Below the pieces are notes generated by a model. That model had not been told where the DNA came from. It worked only from the letters and a program-made list of their open reading frames with translations, and made no database searches. 64,000 nucleotides of DNA, taken from Methanohalophilus halophilus (GTDB taxonomy: Archaea; Halobacteriota; Methanosarcinia; Methanosarcinales; Methanosarcinaceae). Numbering within the stretch: position 1 is the first letter of the stretch; each line of letters starts with the position of its first letter. The stretch is from NCBI RefSeq assembly GCF_001889405.1, contig NZ_CP017921.1, positions 634,057-698,056 on the forward strand, in the 5' to 3' direction. Position numbers and translations under genes: made by a program. Shown here one piece after another: positions 5,766 through 58,729 of the stretch.

Positions 5766-6185
5766 TCAATCCGTTTTTTCAAGATAAAGCGCTATGTAAT
5801 GTGCAAATTTCTCCAGATCATCCAGATGGTTTTGCAGGTAAAAATATACCCTTTCCATATCAATATGGGCGTACATATGAACAAGCACATTTCTAAAACC
5901 TGCTGCAGGGGAGATTTTCCTGGAAAAATCCTGGGGCAAAATTCCATTAGCACCCAGAGTCGTAAAAATTTCCTTATAGGATTCTGGTTTCTTCAATGAG
6001 TGTCGGGAAATTATCATCTCTCCGATATCTATCATGCATTCAAGAGAAACTTCAAGGTACCTTTCCACTGCTCCTCTAAGGGTATGGTCCTGATTGATGT
6101 CATCGAGACTGTAATCCTGATAGCCTTTGAGGATTTCAATATATTCCTTTAATAATTCCAGTTTAGAATATATTGACTCATCCAT
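5766..6185 (-). CDS. hepT: HepT-like ribonuclease toxin (DUF86)
   Basis: 139 residues, all-helical. The HEPN active-site motif Rx4HxY is complete: R98, H103 and Y105 in RNVLVHMY. HepT toxins are metal-independent RNases. The cognate MntA nucleotidyltransferase silences them by adding AMP to the Tyr of this motif. The gene follows mntA; reading mntA through its UAG gives an 8-base overlap with the hepT start at 6185, the usual arrangement for the pair. If mntA stops at UAG, 85 untranslated bases separate them instead. Confidence 0.9.
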   Translation of the reverse strand: MDESIYSKLELLKEYIEILKGYQDYSLDDINQDHTLRGAVERYLEVSLECMIDIGEMIISRHSLKKPESYKEIFTTLGANGILPQDFSRKISPAAGFRNVLVHMYAHIDMERVYFYLQNHLDDLEKFAHYIALYLEKTD

Positions 6186-6606
6186 TGCCCTCTGCCCCTG
6201 TCATCTGCTTTACGGCTTCTCTCATATGGCGCTGTCTGTAAAATTTTTCATCCAGATATCTGGACATGACCTAGGTTTCGAAGGGTATTCGACTGACCTC
6301 ATCAGATTTCAAAACGTATCCATCTTTAATAATATTAAAATTCAAAAGCAGAGGTGCCTGATTCATAATGGTCAGGTCAATCTTGTCAGAACCCAACAAT
6401 CCAACAATATCATCAATAACATGCAACTCCAGCCTAAATATGTCCTGCTTTGAAAGACTTTTATCCAGCAATACTCCTATATCTACATCGCTCAGCTTGT
6501 TGTCGTCACCTCTTGCAACAGAGCCAAATATGTAGGCAAGTACCACTTCATCCAGACTACTGAAATACTTAGAAAGTTTTGCTTGCGCTGATTCCAAGTC
6601 GTACAT
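6178..6606 (-). CDS. mntA: MntA-like nucleotidyltransferase antitoxin, with in-frame UAG at codon 112
   Basis: The minimal nucleotidyltransferase motif GSx10DxD is intact: G28, S29, D40 and D42, with a third Asp at 78 in KIDLTIM. The frame meets UAG at 6273-6271 after FET, then continues as VMSRYLDEKFYRQR and stops at TGA 6180-6178. Ordinary MntA proteins are about 135-145 residues long and end in a similar YLD-containing helix; read through, this one has 142. Methanosarcinaceae insert pyrrolysine at UAG, so full-length MntA could carry Pyl at 112. The shorter 111-residue product keeps the catalytic motif but loses the last helix. Which form is made cannot be told from sequence. Confidence 0.8.
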
Positions 6607-10948: not shown

Positions 10949-11901
10949 TTATGTTTGCTTATTTGATGAGACGAGTGTTATTCCTGATTCCCACTCTCCT
11001 TTTAGTTTCAATAATAAGCTTTTCAATAATACATATCGCTCCCGGGGATCCGGCCGAATTACTACTTACAGGCCCCGATGGTGTGGCAGATCCGCAGGTT
11101 GTAGAAGAATTCAGGGAAGAAATGGGTTTTGACCAGCCATTCCATATACAATATGGGACATGGTTAATGCAGGTTCTTTCTGGTGATCTGGGTTATTCTT
11201 ACATGACCGATCAACCCGTGGCAAAAGCCATCCTGCACAATTTTGGTGCAACTTTTAAATTAGCTGTAGTAAGCATGATATTCACATTATTGATTGCCAT
11301 CCCGGGAGGTATAATAGCTGCACTGGCAAAAGATACATGGAAGGATGACCTGAGCAGATTTTTCTCTCTTTTTGGTGTATCCATCCCAAACTTTTGGCAG
11401 GGGTACCTGATGATTCTTGTATTTGCTATTTTTTTAGATATCTTACCTGTGGGAGGATACGGTGATGGAGGAGACCTCTATCACATGATACTGCCTGCTT
11501 TAACTCTGGGGACTTCATCGGCAGCAGTACTCATGCGCCTGATGCGGTCCAGTCTTTTAGACGTGCTTGATCATGACTATATTCTTTCGGCCAGAGCCCG
11601 GGGATTGCCGGAATATATTATCATTGGAAAACATGCTCTGAAAAATGCCTTCATACCGGTAGTTACCATGATGGGATTGAGTTTTGGCTATCTGTTAAAC
11701 GGATCGGTTATAATTGAGACAGTTTTTGCATGGCCTGGCATAGGAAACCTGATGGTCAGTTCAATATATAGCAGGGATTATCCAATGATACAGGGCACCC
11801 TCCTTTTCGTGGCAGGAATTTTTGTTATCATCAATCTTTTAGTGGACATCTCCTATGCCTATCTTGATCCGAGGTTGAGATATGATAAAAGGAATCTTTA
11901 A
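10945..11901 (+). CDS. ABC transporter permease, NikB/OppB/DppB type
   Basis: 318 residues. It begins with the typical N-terminal helix (AYLMRRVLFLIPTLLLVS) and IIHIAPGDPAELL loop, has about six membrane segments, and carries the cytoplasmic EAA-type coupling loop ARARGLPEYIIIGKHALKNA that docks on the ATPase. The final segment AYLDPRLRYD is usual for the family. It overlaps the methyltransferase by four bases and the next permease by 20, showing a single translational unit. Confidence 0.94.
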   Translation: MIMFAYLMRRVLFLIPTLLLVSIISFSIIHIAPGDPAELLLTGPDGVADPQVVEEFREEMGFDQPFHIQYGTWLMQVLSGDLGYSYMTDQPVAKAILHNFGATFKLAVVSMIFTLLIAIPGGIIAALAKDTWKDDLSRFFSLFGVSIPNFWQGYLMILVFAIFLDILPVGGYGDGGDLYHMILPALTLGTSSAAVLMRLMRSSLLDVLDHDYILSARARGLPEYIIIGKHALKNAFIPVVTMMGLSFGYLLNGSVIIETVFAWPGIGNLMVSSIYSRDYPMIQGTLLFVAGIFVIINLLVDISYAYLDPRLRYDKRNL

Positions 11902-12715
11902 CAGAAGTATGCTAATTGGCCTTATTCTCATTGGTGCAGTAGTATTCCTTGCACTAACAGCTCCGTGGCTGGCCCCCCAGGATCCCCAGAAAACCAATTT
12001 TGATCAGAGATTGTTATCTCCCTCTTCAGAATATCCTTTTGGAACCGATCATCTGGGACGATGCATCTTAAGCAGGGTTCTGTTTGCTGCCCGCATTAGC
12101 CTGTTTATAGGAGGTTCTGTTATAGGAATATCTTTTATCGCCGGCACTTTGATTGGTTCAATCTCAGCTTATGCCGGAGGTATTGTAGACGAGACCGTGA
12201 TGAGATTTGTCGATGGTTTTCTTGCATTTCCCAGCATGTTTATTGCTCTTGCTATTGCCGGCATATTCGGTGGGAACATGACGGGATTGATCATTGCTTT
12301 ATCGATTGTTGAATGGACTGCTTATGCCAGAGTGAGCCGTGGCTCTGTTCTGGCGGTGAAAAACATGGATTATATCGCAGTCTCGAGAATGATGGGAGGC
12401 AGGGCTCCCTATATACTACGCCATCATATCCTGCCAAATATTACATCCCCTTTGCTTGTAATCTCAACCCTTGGAATGGGCAACGTTATCCTGGCAGCTG
12501 CTGGATTGAGTTTCTTGGGATTGGGTGTATCATCTGCTCCGGAATGGGGGATGATGGTCAATGAAGGCCGCCTGTTCCTACAATCCGCTCCCCATGTAAT
12601 GTTTTTCCCGGGGATATTTATTGTAATAACTGTCCTGGGTTTCAATTTCCTTGGGGATGGATTGAGAGATATTTTTGATCCACGAGATACAAAACAGCGT
12701 TGGAGGTTGTTCTGA
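11882..12715 (+). CDS. ABC transporter permease, NikC/OppC/DppC type
   Basis: 277 residues with the OppC-type N-terminus (one helix, then LTAPWLAPQDPQKTNFDQRL and PFGTDHLGRCILSRVLFAAR), five further membrane helices and the coupling loop AVSRMMGGRAPYILRHHILP. It forms the heterodimeric channel with the protein encoded immediately upstream. The C-terminus GDGLRDIFDPR is standard. Translation of the next gene starts directly after its stop codon. Confidence 0.94.
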   Translation: MIKGIFNRSMLIGLILIGAVVFLALTAPWLAPQDPQKTNFDQRLLSPSSEYPFGTDHLGRCILSRVLFAARISLFIGGSVIGISFIAGTLIGSISAYAGGIVDETVMRFVDGFLAFPSMFIALAIAGIFGGNMTGLIIALSIVEWTAYARVSRGSVLAVKNMDYIAVSRMMGGRAPYILRHHILPNITSPLLVISTLGMGNVILAAAGLSFLGLGVSSAPEWGMMVNEGRLFLQSAPHVMFFPGIFIVITVLGFNFLGDGLRDIFDPRDTKQRWRLF

Positions 12716-13636
12716 TTGCTGAGTATAAGGGATCTAAAAGTGTCATTTGAATCTCCTCAGGGACCTATAGTACCTGTTGATTCAGTGGATATGGATATTC
12801 TCGATAAGGAAACCTTCACAATAATAGGTGAATCCGGCTGTGGTAAATCATTACTTGCAAATTCCCTGTTGGGATTGCTTCCCCGCGATGCCCAGGTCTG
12901 CGGAACGGTGCATATGGATGGGGAAGAAATCCTATCATTGAAGGAAAAGGAATGGCGAAAGATCAGGGGCAATAAGATTGGCCTGGTGTTCCAGAATCCT
13001 TCAGCTTCCCTAAATCCGGTATTCACCATGCATAACCAGTTATATGAAACCCTCAAATATTCGAACAAACCCTCATCCCGGGACAAAATGATTTCTCTAC
13101 TGGAAAAAACAGGGATTAAAAATCCTTTGCGCAGACTATCCCAGTACCCTCATCAATTAAGTGGGGGGATGAAACAGAGATTTGCAATCGCTTTGGGGAT
13201 TGCAACTGATCCCGAAATTTTGATAGCTGATGAGCCAACTAACGGCCTTGACGTGACTGTGAAATTAAAAATTGTGGAAATGTTATCCAAACTACATGCA
13301 GAACGTTCTATCCTGCTGATTACACATGATCTTAATGTGGCTTCCAATCTTTCCGATAAAATCGCGGTGATGTACGCCGGGGAACTGGTGGAAATTGCTC
13401 CCGCAAAAAGTTTTTTTGAAAAACCAATTCATCCCTATTCCAGCCAATTACTAGCTTCACATCCGGAAAAAGAAATGATACCCATTCCAGGCTTTACTCC
13501 ACAGCTTACGCAGAGACCCCATGGATGTCGATTCCATCCACGTTGCGCACGGGCCTGCAGCAAATGTAAAACTGAGCATCCTAAGTTGGAAATGATAGAA
13601 GGGGAGAGATATGTGAGGTGTTTTGCCTGTGCTTGA
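12716..13636 (+). CDS. ABC transporter ATP-binding protein, NikD/OppD/DppD type
   Basis: 306 residues starting at TTG directly after the permease stop. Walker A is GESGCGKSLLANS, the Q-loop is VFQNPSASLNPV, the signature is LSGGMKQRFAIA and Walker B is ILIADEPTNGLD. The C-terminal oligopeptide/nickel domain keeps a Cys-rich stretch, CRFHPRCARACSKC, which in relatives holds an Fe-S cluster. It pairs with the ATPase encoded at 13623 to power the importer. Confidence 0.94.
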   Translation: MLSIRDLKVSFESPQGPIVPVDSVDMDILDKETFTIIGESGCGKSLLANSLLGLLPRDAQVCGTVHMDGEEILSLKEKEWRKIRGNKIGLVFQNPSASLNPVFTMHNQLYETLKYSNKPSSRDKMISLLEKTGIKNPLRRLSQYPHQLSGGMKQRFAIALGIATDPEILIADEPTNGLDVTVKLKIVEMLSKLHAERSILLITHDLNVASNLSDKIAVMYAGELVEIAPAKSFFEKPIHPYSSQLLASHPEKEMIPIPGFTPQLTQRPHGCRFHPRCARACSKCKTEHPKLEMIEGERYVRCFACA

Positions 13637-19707: not shown

Positions 19708-20988
19708 ATGAGATCAAAAGGGCTTAAAGCATTCTGTTATACATTCATAGTTACCCTGTTGCTAATTGGACTGGGAAGTATTGCTGTTGCGGATTCCGAT
19801 GAAGTGAATATCACAATTAACGATGCAAGCATAGGGTTTGCCAATCATACAAGTTCTGACACTGAAGGAAACTGGATAGCTGTTAAGGGTGGAGAAGAAT
19901 TCCGGTTACCCCATCCAATATCTTTTACCTATCAGGGAATAAATGCAACAGATTTCGATTATGGTAGTGCACCCATAAATATAACCATGGATGCAGATGA
20001 CGATTATGCTGTCACCTATCCCTTTGCAAATCATTCAATGTTCACCGATATACCTGGGCAGAACGATGTAGAGCTTGAGTTTTATGGTTCAGATATGTTT
20101 GCCTATGATGATGTTGAACTCTACATCATCAGTGTAAACCGGGGAGTTATCAATGAAATTAACCAAAATCTCAAAGAGGCAGATCTTGCAAGTATAAATG
20201 ATCTAACTGAAAATGCATACAAAAAATACCCTAACGAACAACTTGATGGAAATGGAGATCTTGAAATCACATGTAATGATCTGCAAGCCGGAGATTACAT
20301 GGCCCTTATGCTGCTCAATACCAGTCAAATGCAGAAATACGATGCTTTTATTCTTTCTGCCACAGGATTTGAAGTACTGGAATATGATTCCGTAATAACT
20401 GCGCCCCAGGCTGTTGATCTGGATGAGAATATAAATGTGGATGTCAGACTGCTGAATGCTGCGAATGATACCAGTTACACCTATGGTGCGGTCCTTGTAA
20501 AGGATAGTGTATACAAAGCGGATATTGAAATGCAGTGCAATGGTTCAAAGGAAGGTACCAATCTAACAGTAAACGAGATTCCTTTGATCCAGGGATGTGA
20601 CCTTCTGGGAATTGACTCTTCTAATATTGAGCGCAATGATGTCCAGAATAAGATAATAGAACTAATTGGTCCTGATAATGGGACTATTATAATGAAAACT
20701 GTAGAGGCAAACCAAACCAGTCTCAGTATAACCACAACCGACCTGCCGGAAGATAAATACATCCTGCTTACTGGAGTATACAAATCCGGGGAAGGTCTTG
20801 TTGCATTCGGCCAGCAGGATGTCTTCATTGCCCCGTACAATCCCTATGATTTCAATGAGAATTACATAATCAATATTGTAGAGATAAGTACCGCAGCTTT
20901 TGATTTTATCAGAGGAGAGTTGCCTATCAGAGATATATCTGAACTGGTCTATTACTTCCTGTCAGGGGATGAGTACTATTCCCTGTAA
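19708..20988 (+). CDS. Secreted protein with C-terminal dockerin-like module
   Basis: 426 residues. It has a signal peptide (FIVTLLLIGLGSIAVADS) and a long beta-rich extracellular region of a kind found in methanogen surface proteins, but I cannot name the domain with certainty. The last 50 residues form a dockerin-like pair of helices with a Ca-binding-like loop, YDFNENYIINIVEISTA, then ISELVYYFLSG. The same module ends the proteins encoded at 20969 and 24661. There is no membrane anchor, so retention may depend on that module. Confidence 0.75.
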   Translation: MRSKGLKAFCYTFIVTLLLIGLGSIAVADSDEVNITINDASIGFANHTSSDTEGNWIAVKGGEEFRLPHPISFTYQGINATDFDYGSAPINITMDADDDYAVTYPFANHSMFTDIPGQNDVELEFYGSDMFAYDDVELYIISVNRGVINEINQNLKEADLASINDLTENAYKKYPNEQLDGNGDLEITCNDLQAGDYMALMLLNTSQMQKYDAFILSATGFEVLEYDSVITAPQAVDLDENINVDVRLLNAANDTSYTYGAVLVKDSVYKADIEMQCNGSKEGTNLTVNEIPLIQGCDLLGIDSSNIERNDVQNKIIELIGPDNGTIIMKTVEANQTSLSITTTDLPEDKYILLTGVYKSGEGLVAFGQQDVFIAPYNPYDFNENYIINIVEISTAAFDFIRGELPIRDISELVYYFLSGDEYYSL

Positions 20989-56851: not shown

Positions 56852-57307
56852 ATGGATCGTTTAAACAAAGATAAAGCTCTTGATTTTGAAAATGCATTAC
56901 TTGAATTTGATCGCGTGCATGCTGAACAGATACTTGAAGGCGCCCTGTCAGAAAATAATACTTTTCAGGTAATCGATGAAATTGTGTCTCCTGCCCTAAC
57001 AAGAATCGGGACCTCCTGGGATACAGGTGAAATTGCCCTTTCCCAGAATTATATGGCAGGCAGAATTGCAGAACAACTTATGGACGAAATTTTACCTGCC
57101 GAAAGTCCTGAAAGAATTGATCACCCCAAAATAGCCATAACTACACTTGGCGATTATCACATGCTGGGTAAAAAGGTTGTTACTTCAATGCTGCGATCAA
57201 CGGGACATTCGATTAAAGAATATGATAACATGGACCTCATTGAGAAACTCAATTAAGATGATATCGATCTGCTCCTCACATCAACCCTGATGCTTAAGCA
57301 AAAATAA
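56852..57307 (+). pseudogene. Broken corrinoid-binding protein
   Basis: The first 134 codons encode the helical cap (DFENALLEFDRVHAEQILEG, then GTSWDTGEIALSQNYMAGRI) and the start of a B12-binding Rossmann domain with the DxHxxG motif as GDYHMLGKKVV. TAA at 57254 interrupts the fold. In the same frame DDIDLLLTSTLMLKQK continues the expected strand (compare DILLISTLMLP in intact relatives) and meets a second TAA at 57305. About 70 residues of the domain are missing. Relatives serve methyltransferases or sense methylated compounds. The kinase gene that follows is in the same frame. Confidence 0.72.
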
Positions 57308-57316
57308 CAGATCATT

Positions 57317-58729
57317 ATGGAATCGAAAAACCCTATACTATTGCTTTCAAATGACCTCTATTCCTATGGTGCAGGACTCACTTCCAATAAAGAGATGTTA
57401 AAAGACGCATCCATACTCAATATACAGGATTTCGGGAACCTGGACCCTGCATCACAGCAAGAAATGCTAAAAAGCCATGGTACTCTGTATATAATCACAT
57501 CTGCCAATGAAGGACCTTTACCCTAGGTACTGGACATATGTGATAATGAAATATACCACATAAAGGCTGAAGAATGCCAGGACAGCAATAAATCCGCTTA
57601 TCCGTATATTCTTAATGCAAAACTTATGGAATTAATGCTTGAGCAAAAGGAAGCAAAAAATCGCAACCTAAACGAGCAAATGTCCTCTTACTTGATAGCA
57701 ATGGACTCAATCTATACTCTCTCCTCATATGATCGCAAAGAGGACATTATAAATCATACAAAAGAATTCTTTGCAATGATGTGCCTGCCCGAAAACCTAT
57801 GTTATTTTGAGGCACATAACACAAAGGCACAAAGTTGCATGCATCTTACTGATTTCCAGAGAAAGGAAGTTATAGCTTTTCTTAAGAGCAATGAATATTA
57901 CAAAATAGCCCCATCGAAAAAGAGTTTCTGTTTCAAGTTAACTTTACAGGACGGTGATGAAGGGATATTTGTTCTTGAAAATATAACTTATCAGAATCGT
58001 TTACATGAATTCTTGAATTTAACATTGAGCATTCGCAGCGTGCTTACACTAATACTGGAGAATATTGCCAGGCAGGATGAGTTGGTAACGTCACATAATT
58101 TACTTGCCGATGCAAATGATATGTTGAAAGTAATTAACAAGATTTTGCGTCATGACCTGGCTAATAATCTGGGTGCCATTAAAATGTCCCTGGAGATGAA
58201 TGAAACCAGGCCTAATCCAAAATACATCCAAATTTCCAAAAAAGCTGTTGACCGCAGTTTTGAAAAAATCAATGACATGAAAGGACTTGAAAACATTATC
58301 AGCACCGGGAAAAACCTTGACTGTTATGAAGTGAAGGAAATTATAGAAAAAATTGCAGGTACAGATATTGAGATGGATATTTCCATTGATGGCAGATGCA
58401 AGGTTCTGGCAGATAATGCGTTATCCTCTGTTTTTGAAAATATAATAAAAAATGCAATTGCTCATGGTAAAGCCAATAAAATGAAGATAAAAATGGAACC
58501 TTCCGGGAAGTATTGTCATATTTCCATAGAGGATAATGGCACAGGGATCCCCGATAAAATTAAGACAAAAATTTTTAAGGAAGGATTTACTGAGGGCGGA
58601 TATAGCAATTCTGGATTGGGCCTGTATATCTCAAAAAAGGTTATAGAAAGGTATGGAGGCCACATTGCAGTAAAGGATAATACACCACATGGAGCAAAAT
58701 TCATCCTGGATATTCCTTCTACAAAATGA
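57317..58729 (+). CDS. Sensor histidine kinase with in-frame UAG at codon 70
   Basis: From ATG 57317 the frame encodes 69 residues (ILLLSNDLYSYGAGLTSNKE and onward), meets UAG at 57524-57526, then continues without stop as VLDICDNEIYHIKAEEC into the kinase, 470 codons in all. The C-terminal part has an H box (KILRHDLANNLGAIKMS, His279), an N box (NIIKNAIAHGKANK), and G boxes DNGTGIPDK and SNSGLGLYISK. A GAF-like region lies before it. If UAG ends translation, the kinase would need the internal ATG 57626. Pyrrolysine at 70 or decay of a corrinoid-kinase fusion are both possible. Confidence 0.75.

Follow-up and report, generated by a model that had tools for sequence, protein, structure and literature searches.

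The window, the 64,000-nucleotide stretch of DNA analysed here, comes from the genome (G000) of a Methanohalophilus, a halophilic methanogenic archaeon, and contains a sensor histidine kinase gene next to the remains of a corrinoid protein gene. The kinase frame comprises 470 codons from ATG 57317 to TGA 58727-58729 and, in agreement with the sequence-only reading of this DNA, its translation is broken by one internal stop only, the UAG at 57524; no further stop or frameshift was found between positions 57317 and 58729. That reading had also pointed to a second UAG-bearing gene in the window; we found one, perhaps the gene meant, in an MntA-like gene on the minus strand. The features are listed below, G003, G005 and G007 being other genomes of the same genus.

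56852-57256, plus strand: remnant of a gene for a methyltransferase-cognate corrinoid protein, ending in TAA 57254-57256
57257-57297, plus strand: corrinoid frame past the TAA, up to the deletion junction
57297-57298, plus strand: junction of a ~1.2-kb deletion, from comparison with G007
57299-57307, plus strand: end of the lost methyltransferase gene (final codons with TAA), kept just upstream of the kinase start
57317-58729, plus strand: sensor histidine kinase frame (translation, HATPase_c, orthologues)
57524-57526, plus strand: in-frame UAG at codon 70 (CAG in G007, CAA in G005, CGG in G003)
57527-57625, plus strand: codons 71-103, from the UAG up to the following in-frame ATG; three orthologues have collinear coding sequence here
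57626-57628, plus strand: Met104 codon, a Met inside the protein in every orthologue and the sole candidate for re-initiation near the UAG
6178-6606, minus strand: MntA-like nucleotidyltransferase gene, the second UAG gene in the window, with UAG at codon 112 (6271-6273)

The kinase contains an HATPase_c domain that scores 77.9 bits, above the Pfam cut-off of 26.4, and the stretch RHDLANN at residues 278-284 was read by eye as the phospho-acceptor box; a SPOB_a match scored below its cut-off. The 69 codons upstream of the UAG matched no Pfam family at an E value of 0.01. A structure prediction of the read-through product, made from two sequences, had a mean pLDDT of 41, too low for a fold search, with block means of 50-75 in the first 110 residues only. 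In this model of low overall pLDDT, residue 70 is predicted to start a short helix that follows the third strand.

The intact operon is found in G007, where genes for a 215-aa corrinoid protein and a 346-aa methyltransferase (19909-20949) precede the kinase. The G007 corrinoid protein has B12-binding domains above the Pfam cut-offs and a TIGR02370 match below its cut-off, and the methyltransferase passes the cut-off for URO-D but stays below those of the MtaA/CmuA subfamily models. In the window, the corrinoid remnant carries its TAA at the position of Glu138 of G007, together with a 9-nt in-frame deletion, and the ~1.2-kb deletion took its 3' end and nearly all of the 346-aa MtaA/CmuA-like methyltransferase gene. 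The adjacent corrinoid gene is thus broken, as had been claimed from the sequence. The kinase start region is undamaged despite the upstream deletion, and the kinase is now an orphan, its operon partners being truncated or removed. In the intact species the methyltransferase stop lies a few bases before the kinase start, so kinase translation may have been coupled to that of the methyltransferase; such coupling would be gone in the window's genome. In G005, Methanohalophilus profundi SLHTYRO, the methyltransferase ORF has a late start and a frameshift breaks the kinase (L041:4092-6242), and the same operon may therefore be decaying independently there. The kinase frame of M. profundi is broken by one extra A near codon 406, possibly a sequencing error.

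Codon 70 in the kinase orthologues

A homologue search over 99 genomes with an E-value threshold of 1e-20 gave a match in 24, and the match spanned codon 70 only in G000 and in G003, G007 and G005, all of the same genus. The orthologues of the latter three are 89%, 87% and 86% identical to the kinase, respectively. One further row (L010) reaches the codon-70 region by a gapped alignment at 34% identity and was excluded from the orthologue count, and most distant homologues align from about residue 102 onward only. A scan of genome contigs revealed one true orthologue, that of M. profundi, and four distant matches. The orthologue is absent in G001, G002, G004 and G006, that is, in four of the seven other genomes of the genus.

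In all three orthologues the start is the ATG that corresponds to 57317, and in none is it the equivalent of 57626, a start site that would have spoken against a frame crossing the UAG. Since codons 1-103 align without gaps in all of them, codons 71-103 represent real coding sequence, in line with the protein-like composition noted earlier for this segment. The comparison with sense-codon orthologues that the sequence-only reading had proposed was possible in three of three cases: codon 70 is CGG in G003, CAG in G007 and CAA in G005. Considering these codons, the UAG is derived, by a single C-to-T step from CAG. The encoded residue is variable (Gln, Gln and Arg), and the change would therefore be close to neutral. 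A conserved role of pyrrolysine (Pyl) at this position was ruled out, UAG being present in none of the three orthologues.

Selection was assessed by dN/dS fits on G000, G007 and G003 and by a separate four-taxon fit on codons 1-405. On the G000 branch, dN/dS was 0.27 for codons 1-470, 0.21 for codons 104-470 and 0.11 for codons 261-470, values that are clearly below 1 (2dlnL of 16.7, 21.3 and 19.9, respectively) and equal to the background in all three segments. The kinase core (codons 261-470), with an upper limit of about 0.28, is still under purifying selection on this branch. Codons 1-103 evolve fast in all lineages (dN/dS 0.54); their G000-branch value of about 1.0 has almost no power, and the 0.22 obtained for codons 71-103 has none. 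The four-taxon fit gave 0.47 for G000 versus 0.27 (2dlnL 1.97, not significant; against 1, 3.66). All these values average over the whole G000 branch, which is possibly older than the UAG, and cannot date it.

UAG as terminator and as probable sense codon

The window's genome, a single contig of 2,022,959 bases, contains pylS, a tRNA-Pyl (anticodon CUA) some 100 bases upstream of pylS, and one full canonical aRF1. Terminators were counted in a 464-kb sample (23% of G000, window included) on largely non-overlapping ORFs of at least 150 aa. The 339 ORFs ended in TAA (153), TGA (184) or TAG (2), and TAG accounted for 18% of the stop-type trinucleotides in the sample. The two TAG-ended ORFs are pylB and an antisense artefact opposite two shorter ORFs that, like pylB, were named by reading and probably encode riboflavin kinase and RibB. 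TAG ended 3 of 290 ORFs in G007 and, in 80-kb samples of PylS-positive genomes, 2/54 in G003, 0/58 in G009, 3/64 in G013 and 1/47 in G017, whereas the PylS-less relative G062 had 11/49 (80-kb sample; Fisher p about 3e-9 versus G000).

In both G000 and G007, pylB ends in TAG, and a conserved 39-codon extension continues beyond it into the pylC start region. The G000 gene (C1 422201-423262, L051) is the sole apparent UAG stop kept in the sample; the same TAG has been described in M. mazei, M. acetivorans and M. burtonii (PMC2933860). Because pylB keeps UAG as an apparent stop and aRF1 is present, some termination at UAG is to be expected. In the PylS-positive G013, two ribosomal-protein-like genes (L100, minus strand, 10962-11483 and 12418-12951) end in TAG with another stop two codons on, possibly a backup-stop arrangement; possession of PylS alone does not abolish UAG stops. 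Among the papers accessible to it, a literature search found none on UAG usage across Methanohalophilus, and a genus comparison mentions the tRNA for pyrrolysine once in its accessible text (PMC6491703). According to an excerpt of a review, Pyl read-through of UAG requires no fixed context (PMC8211752).

Other genes of G000 also cross a UAG. The MntA-like gene (Pfam Polbeta/NTP_transf_2) encodes Tyr, Arg or Ser at codon 112 in 7/7 aligned loci of other genomes, nine loci having been given, one of which is the window's own and one of which yielded no row. Its sequence past the UAG is conserved in relatives, and termination at the UAG would remove the last 30 codons. When read through, the frame runs 8 nt into the start of a HepT-like gene, the pair spanning 5766-6606 on the minus strand; the names MntA and HepT follow the family pair. 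A TYW2-like tRNA-modification gene (C1 514768-515589, L056; PF02475 and PF25133) with a match in 20/20 genomes searched (E 1e-20) has UAG at codon 102, where a sense codon stands in 14/14 compared loci from other genomes, namely Ser in all seven of the same genus. Two further TYW2-like matches in G000 are paralogues (34% and 27%). In a MarR-like gene, named by eye, the UAG is codon 139 of 146. As a standard-code gene caller cuts such frames at the UAG or calls them broken, the kinase, MntA-like and TYW2-like genes are at risk of mis-annotation in Methanohalophilus. In G003, a DinB-like polymerase, also named by eye (L104:1883-2590, plus strand), has an in-frame TAG after 235 codons, followed by 127 more open codons.

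In a mirrored test between G000 and G007, we collected frames interrupted by a single internal stop (TAG, TAA or TGA) that were bridged by the other genome. The test was noisy, most matches being stops in both genomes that correspond to adjacent genes or antisense frames. Stops in G000 facing sense codons in G007 comprised four TAG, two TAA (both short) and no clean TGA, the two long TAG cases being the kinase and the TYW2-like gene; in the opposite direction there were two TAG, one TAA and three TGA. Since this test alone does not favour TAG, we took terminator usage as the main argument.

Interpretation of the kinase UAG and its relation to known systems

Considering that pylT and pylS are present, that UAG terminators are nearly abolished and that other conserved genes cross UAGs, Pyl read-through is the best reading of codon 70, which upholds the earlier preference for Pyl decoding. 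UAG is most likely read as Pyl because the lineage has almost stopped using it as a stop. On the sequence evidence, we consider it likely that the codon-70 UAG is derived, is read as Pyl to give the full 470-aa kinase, and is a near-neutral change in the remnant of a three-gene operon. CAG would have become UAG by one base change in a Methanohalophilus genome where UAG works almost everywhere as a Pyl sense codon. At residue 70 the ribosomes would most likely place Pyl and go on to complete the whole kinase, with only minor termination by aRF1, and this Pyl would carry no special chemistry. The kinase would be the leftover of an operon for a corrinoid protein, an MtaA/CmuA-like methyltransferase and the kinase itself, and its role in the intact species was probably to monitor the state of the corrinoid-methyltransferase pair. 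Overall, the UAG resembles an innocuous single-letter mutation rather than a new control switch.

Decay, already named as the rival in the sequence-only reading, stays the main alternative because the loss of the operon around the kinase (TAA and ~1.2-kb deletion) is real, and we regard it as rather unlikely. The kinase would have become purposeless after the methyltransferase deletion and the UAG would be an early nonsense step, whatever the read-through fraction. Consistent with this are the corrinoid lesions adjoining the kinase, the frameshift in M. profundi, the four same-genus genomes that have no orthologue, and the G000-specific changes D429Y and E414K in the ATPase region. Mid-gene TAA or TGA codons facing sense codons are also present in the sample and count against the Pyl reading. 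However, the 470 codons carry no other lesion, this genome scarcely uses UAG as a stop, and the purifying selection on the core leaves at most about a fifth of the branch as neutral, as estimated from the 0.28 limit.

It is very unlikely that the UAG terminates and that translation from ATG 57626 yields a 367-aa kinase. Such a product would retain the kinase core, and the alignment of most distant homologues from about residue 102 only would fit it; however, the upstream ATG is used in all three orthologues, in which Met104 is an ordinary internal Met, and no Shine-Dalgarno-like stretch was seen by eye ahead of 57626. We give a similarly low probability to the view that UAG is a true 62nd sense codon in Methanohalophilus and that the orphaned sensor now depends on Pyl-tRNA for its full length, its N-terminal domain being attached to the kinase only if Pyl is produced. 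If this were true, a restart at Met104 would give a second kinase, devoid of the N-terminal domain, when Pyl is scarce.

A PYLIS-like element is seen in mtmB; it is not required. Two PYLIS_1 elements occur elsewhere in the window's genome, and no PYLIS match was found after the kinase UAG, where the fold is not unusual (z -0.59). The idea in the sequence-only reading that Pyl ties sensor synthesis to methylamine growth is therefore unsupported, as the UAG is lineage-specific, replaces CAG, CAA or CGG at a tolerant position and has no PYLIS match. A selected switch, in which the amount of full-length sensor tracks the supply of Pyl-tRNA and hence methylamine growth, is the least probable explanation: the organism decodes Pyl, the ancestral partners of the kinase are methyl-transfer proteins, and in the bacterium Acetohalobium arabaticum the way UAG is read varies with the growth substrate (PMC8211752), but none of the three orthologues has the UAG at this variable site and the partners are deleted in the same genome.

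The near-neutral Pyl reading has a direct precedent in Thg1 of Methanosarcina acetivorans, a protein reportedly treated by Heinemann et al. in 2009. In this tRNA-His guanylyltransferase, an in-frame UAG, present in a single species, encodes a Pyl that is dispensable for activity (PMC2933860). As in Thg1, the kinase host encodes tRNA-Pyl and PylS, and the UAG is derived, with sense codons in 3/3 orthologues; unlike in the Thg1 case, the host genome is nearly free of UAG terminators. Pyl was physically observed in Thg1, whereas we infer it for the kinase. To judge by the sequence, the kinase UAG is best read as this known kind of neutral UAG-to-Pyl drift. The methylamine methyltransferases MtmB, MtbB and MttB share the decoding machinery with the kinase, and mass spectrometry has revealed Pyl in the MttB of a member of the same genus, Methanohalophilus portucalensis (PMC4928046). 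In these enzymes, however, the UAG is a conserved feature and Pyl is linked to catalysis, whereas the kinase UAG is lineage-specific at a variable site.

Kivenson and co-workers reportedly described, in Science in 2025, an archaeal code with all TAG codons read as Pyl. As is said of that code, the window's genome has UAG depleted as a terminator and present in ordinary genes; unlike there, pylB still ends in TAG. As a genus of small-genome methanogens in which UAG terminators are nearly lost, Methanohalophilus is convenient for measuring to what extent UAG has turned into a plain sense codon and suits measuring the spread of neutral UAGs, of which the kinase is one ordinary example.

Cluster 16 of a 2013 prediction of Pyl genes contains, in the available portion of the article, a UAG histidine kinase in M. 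acetivorans, M. mahii (pseudogene) and M. barkeri (PMC3639795). Both this cluster, as far as that portion describes it, and the window kinase are sensory histidine kinases with an in-frame UAG; they are probably different loci, the G007 orthologue having CAG. G007 also contains a PAS sensor kinase, named by eye (C1 138345-139169, minus strand), in which 274 codons precede an in-frame TAG and 622 follow it; this gene may be the M. mahii pseudogene of that prediction.
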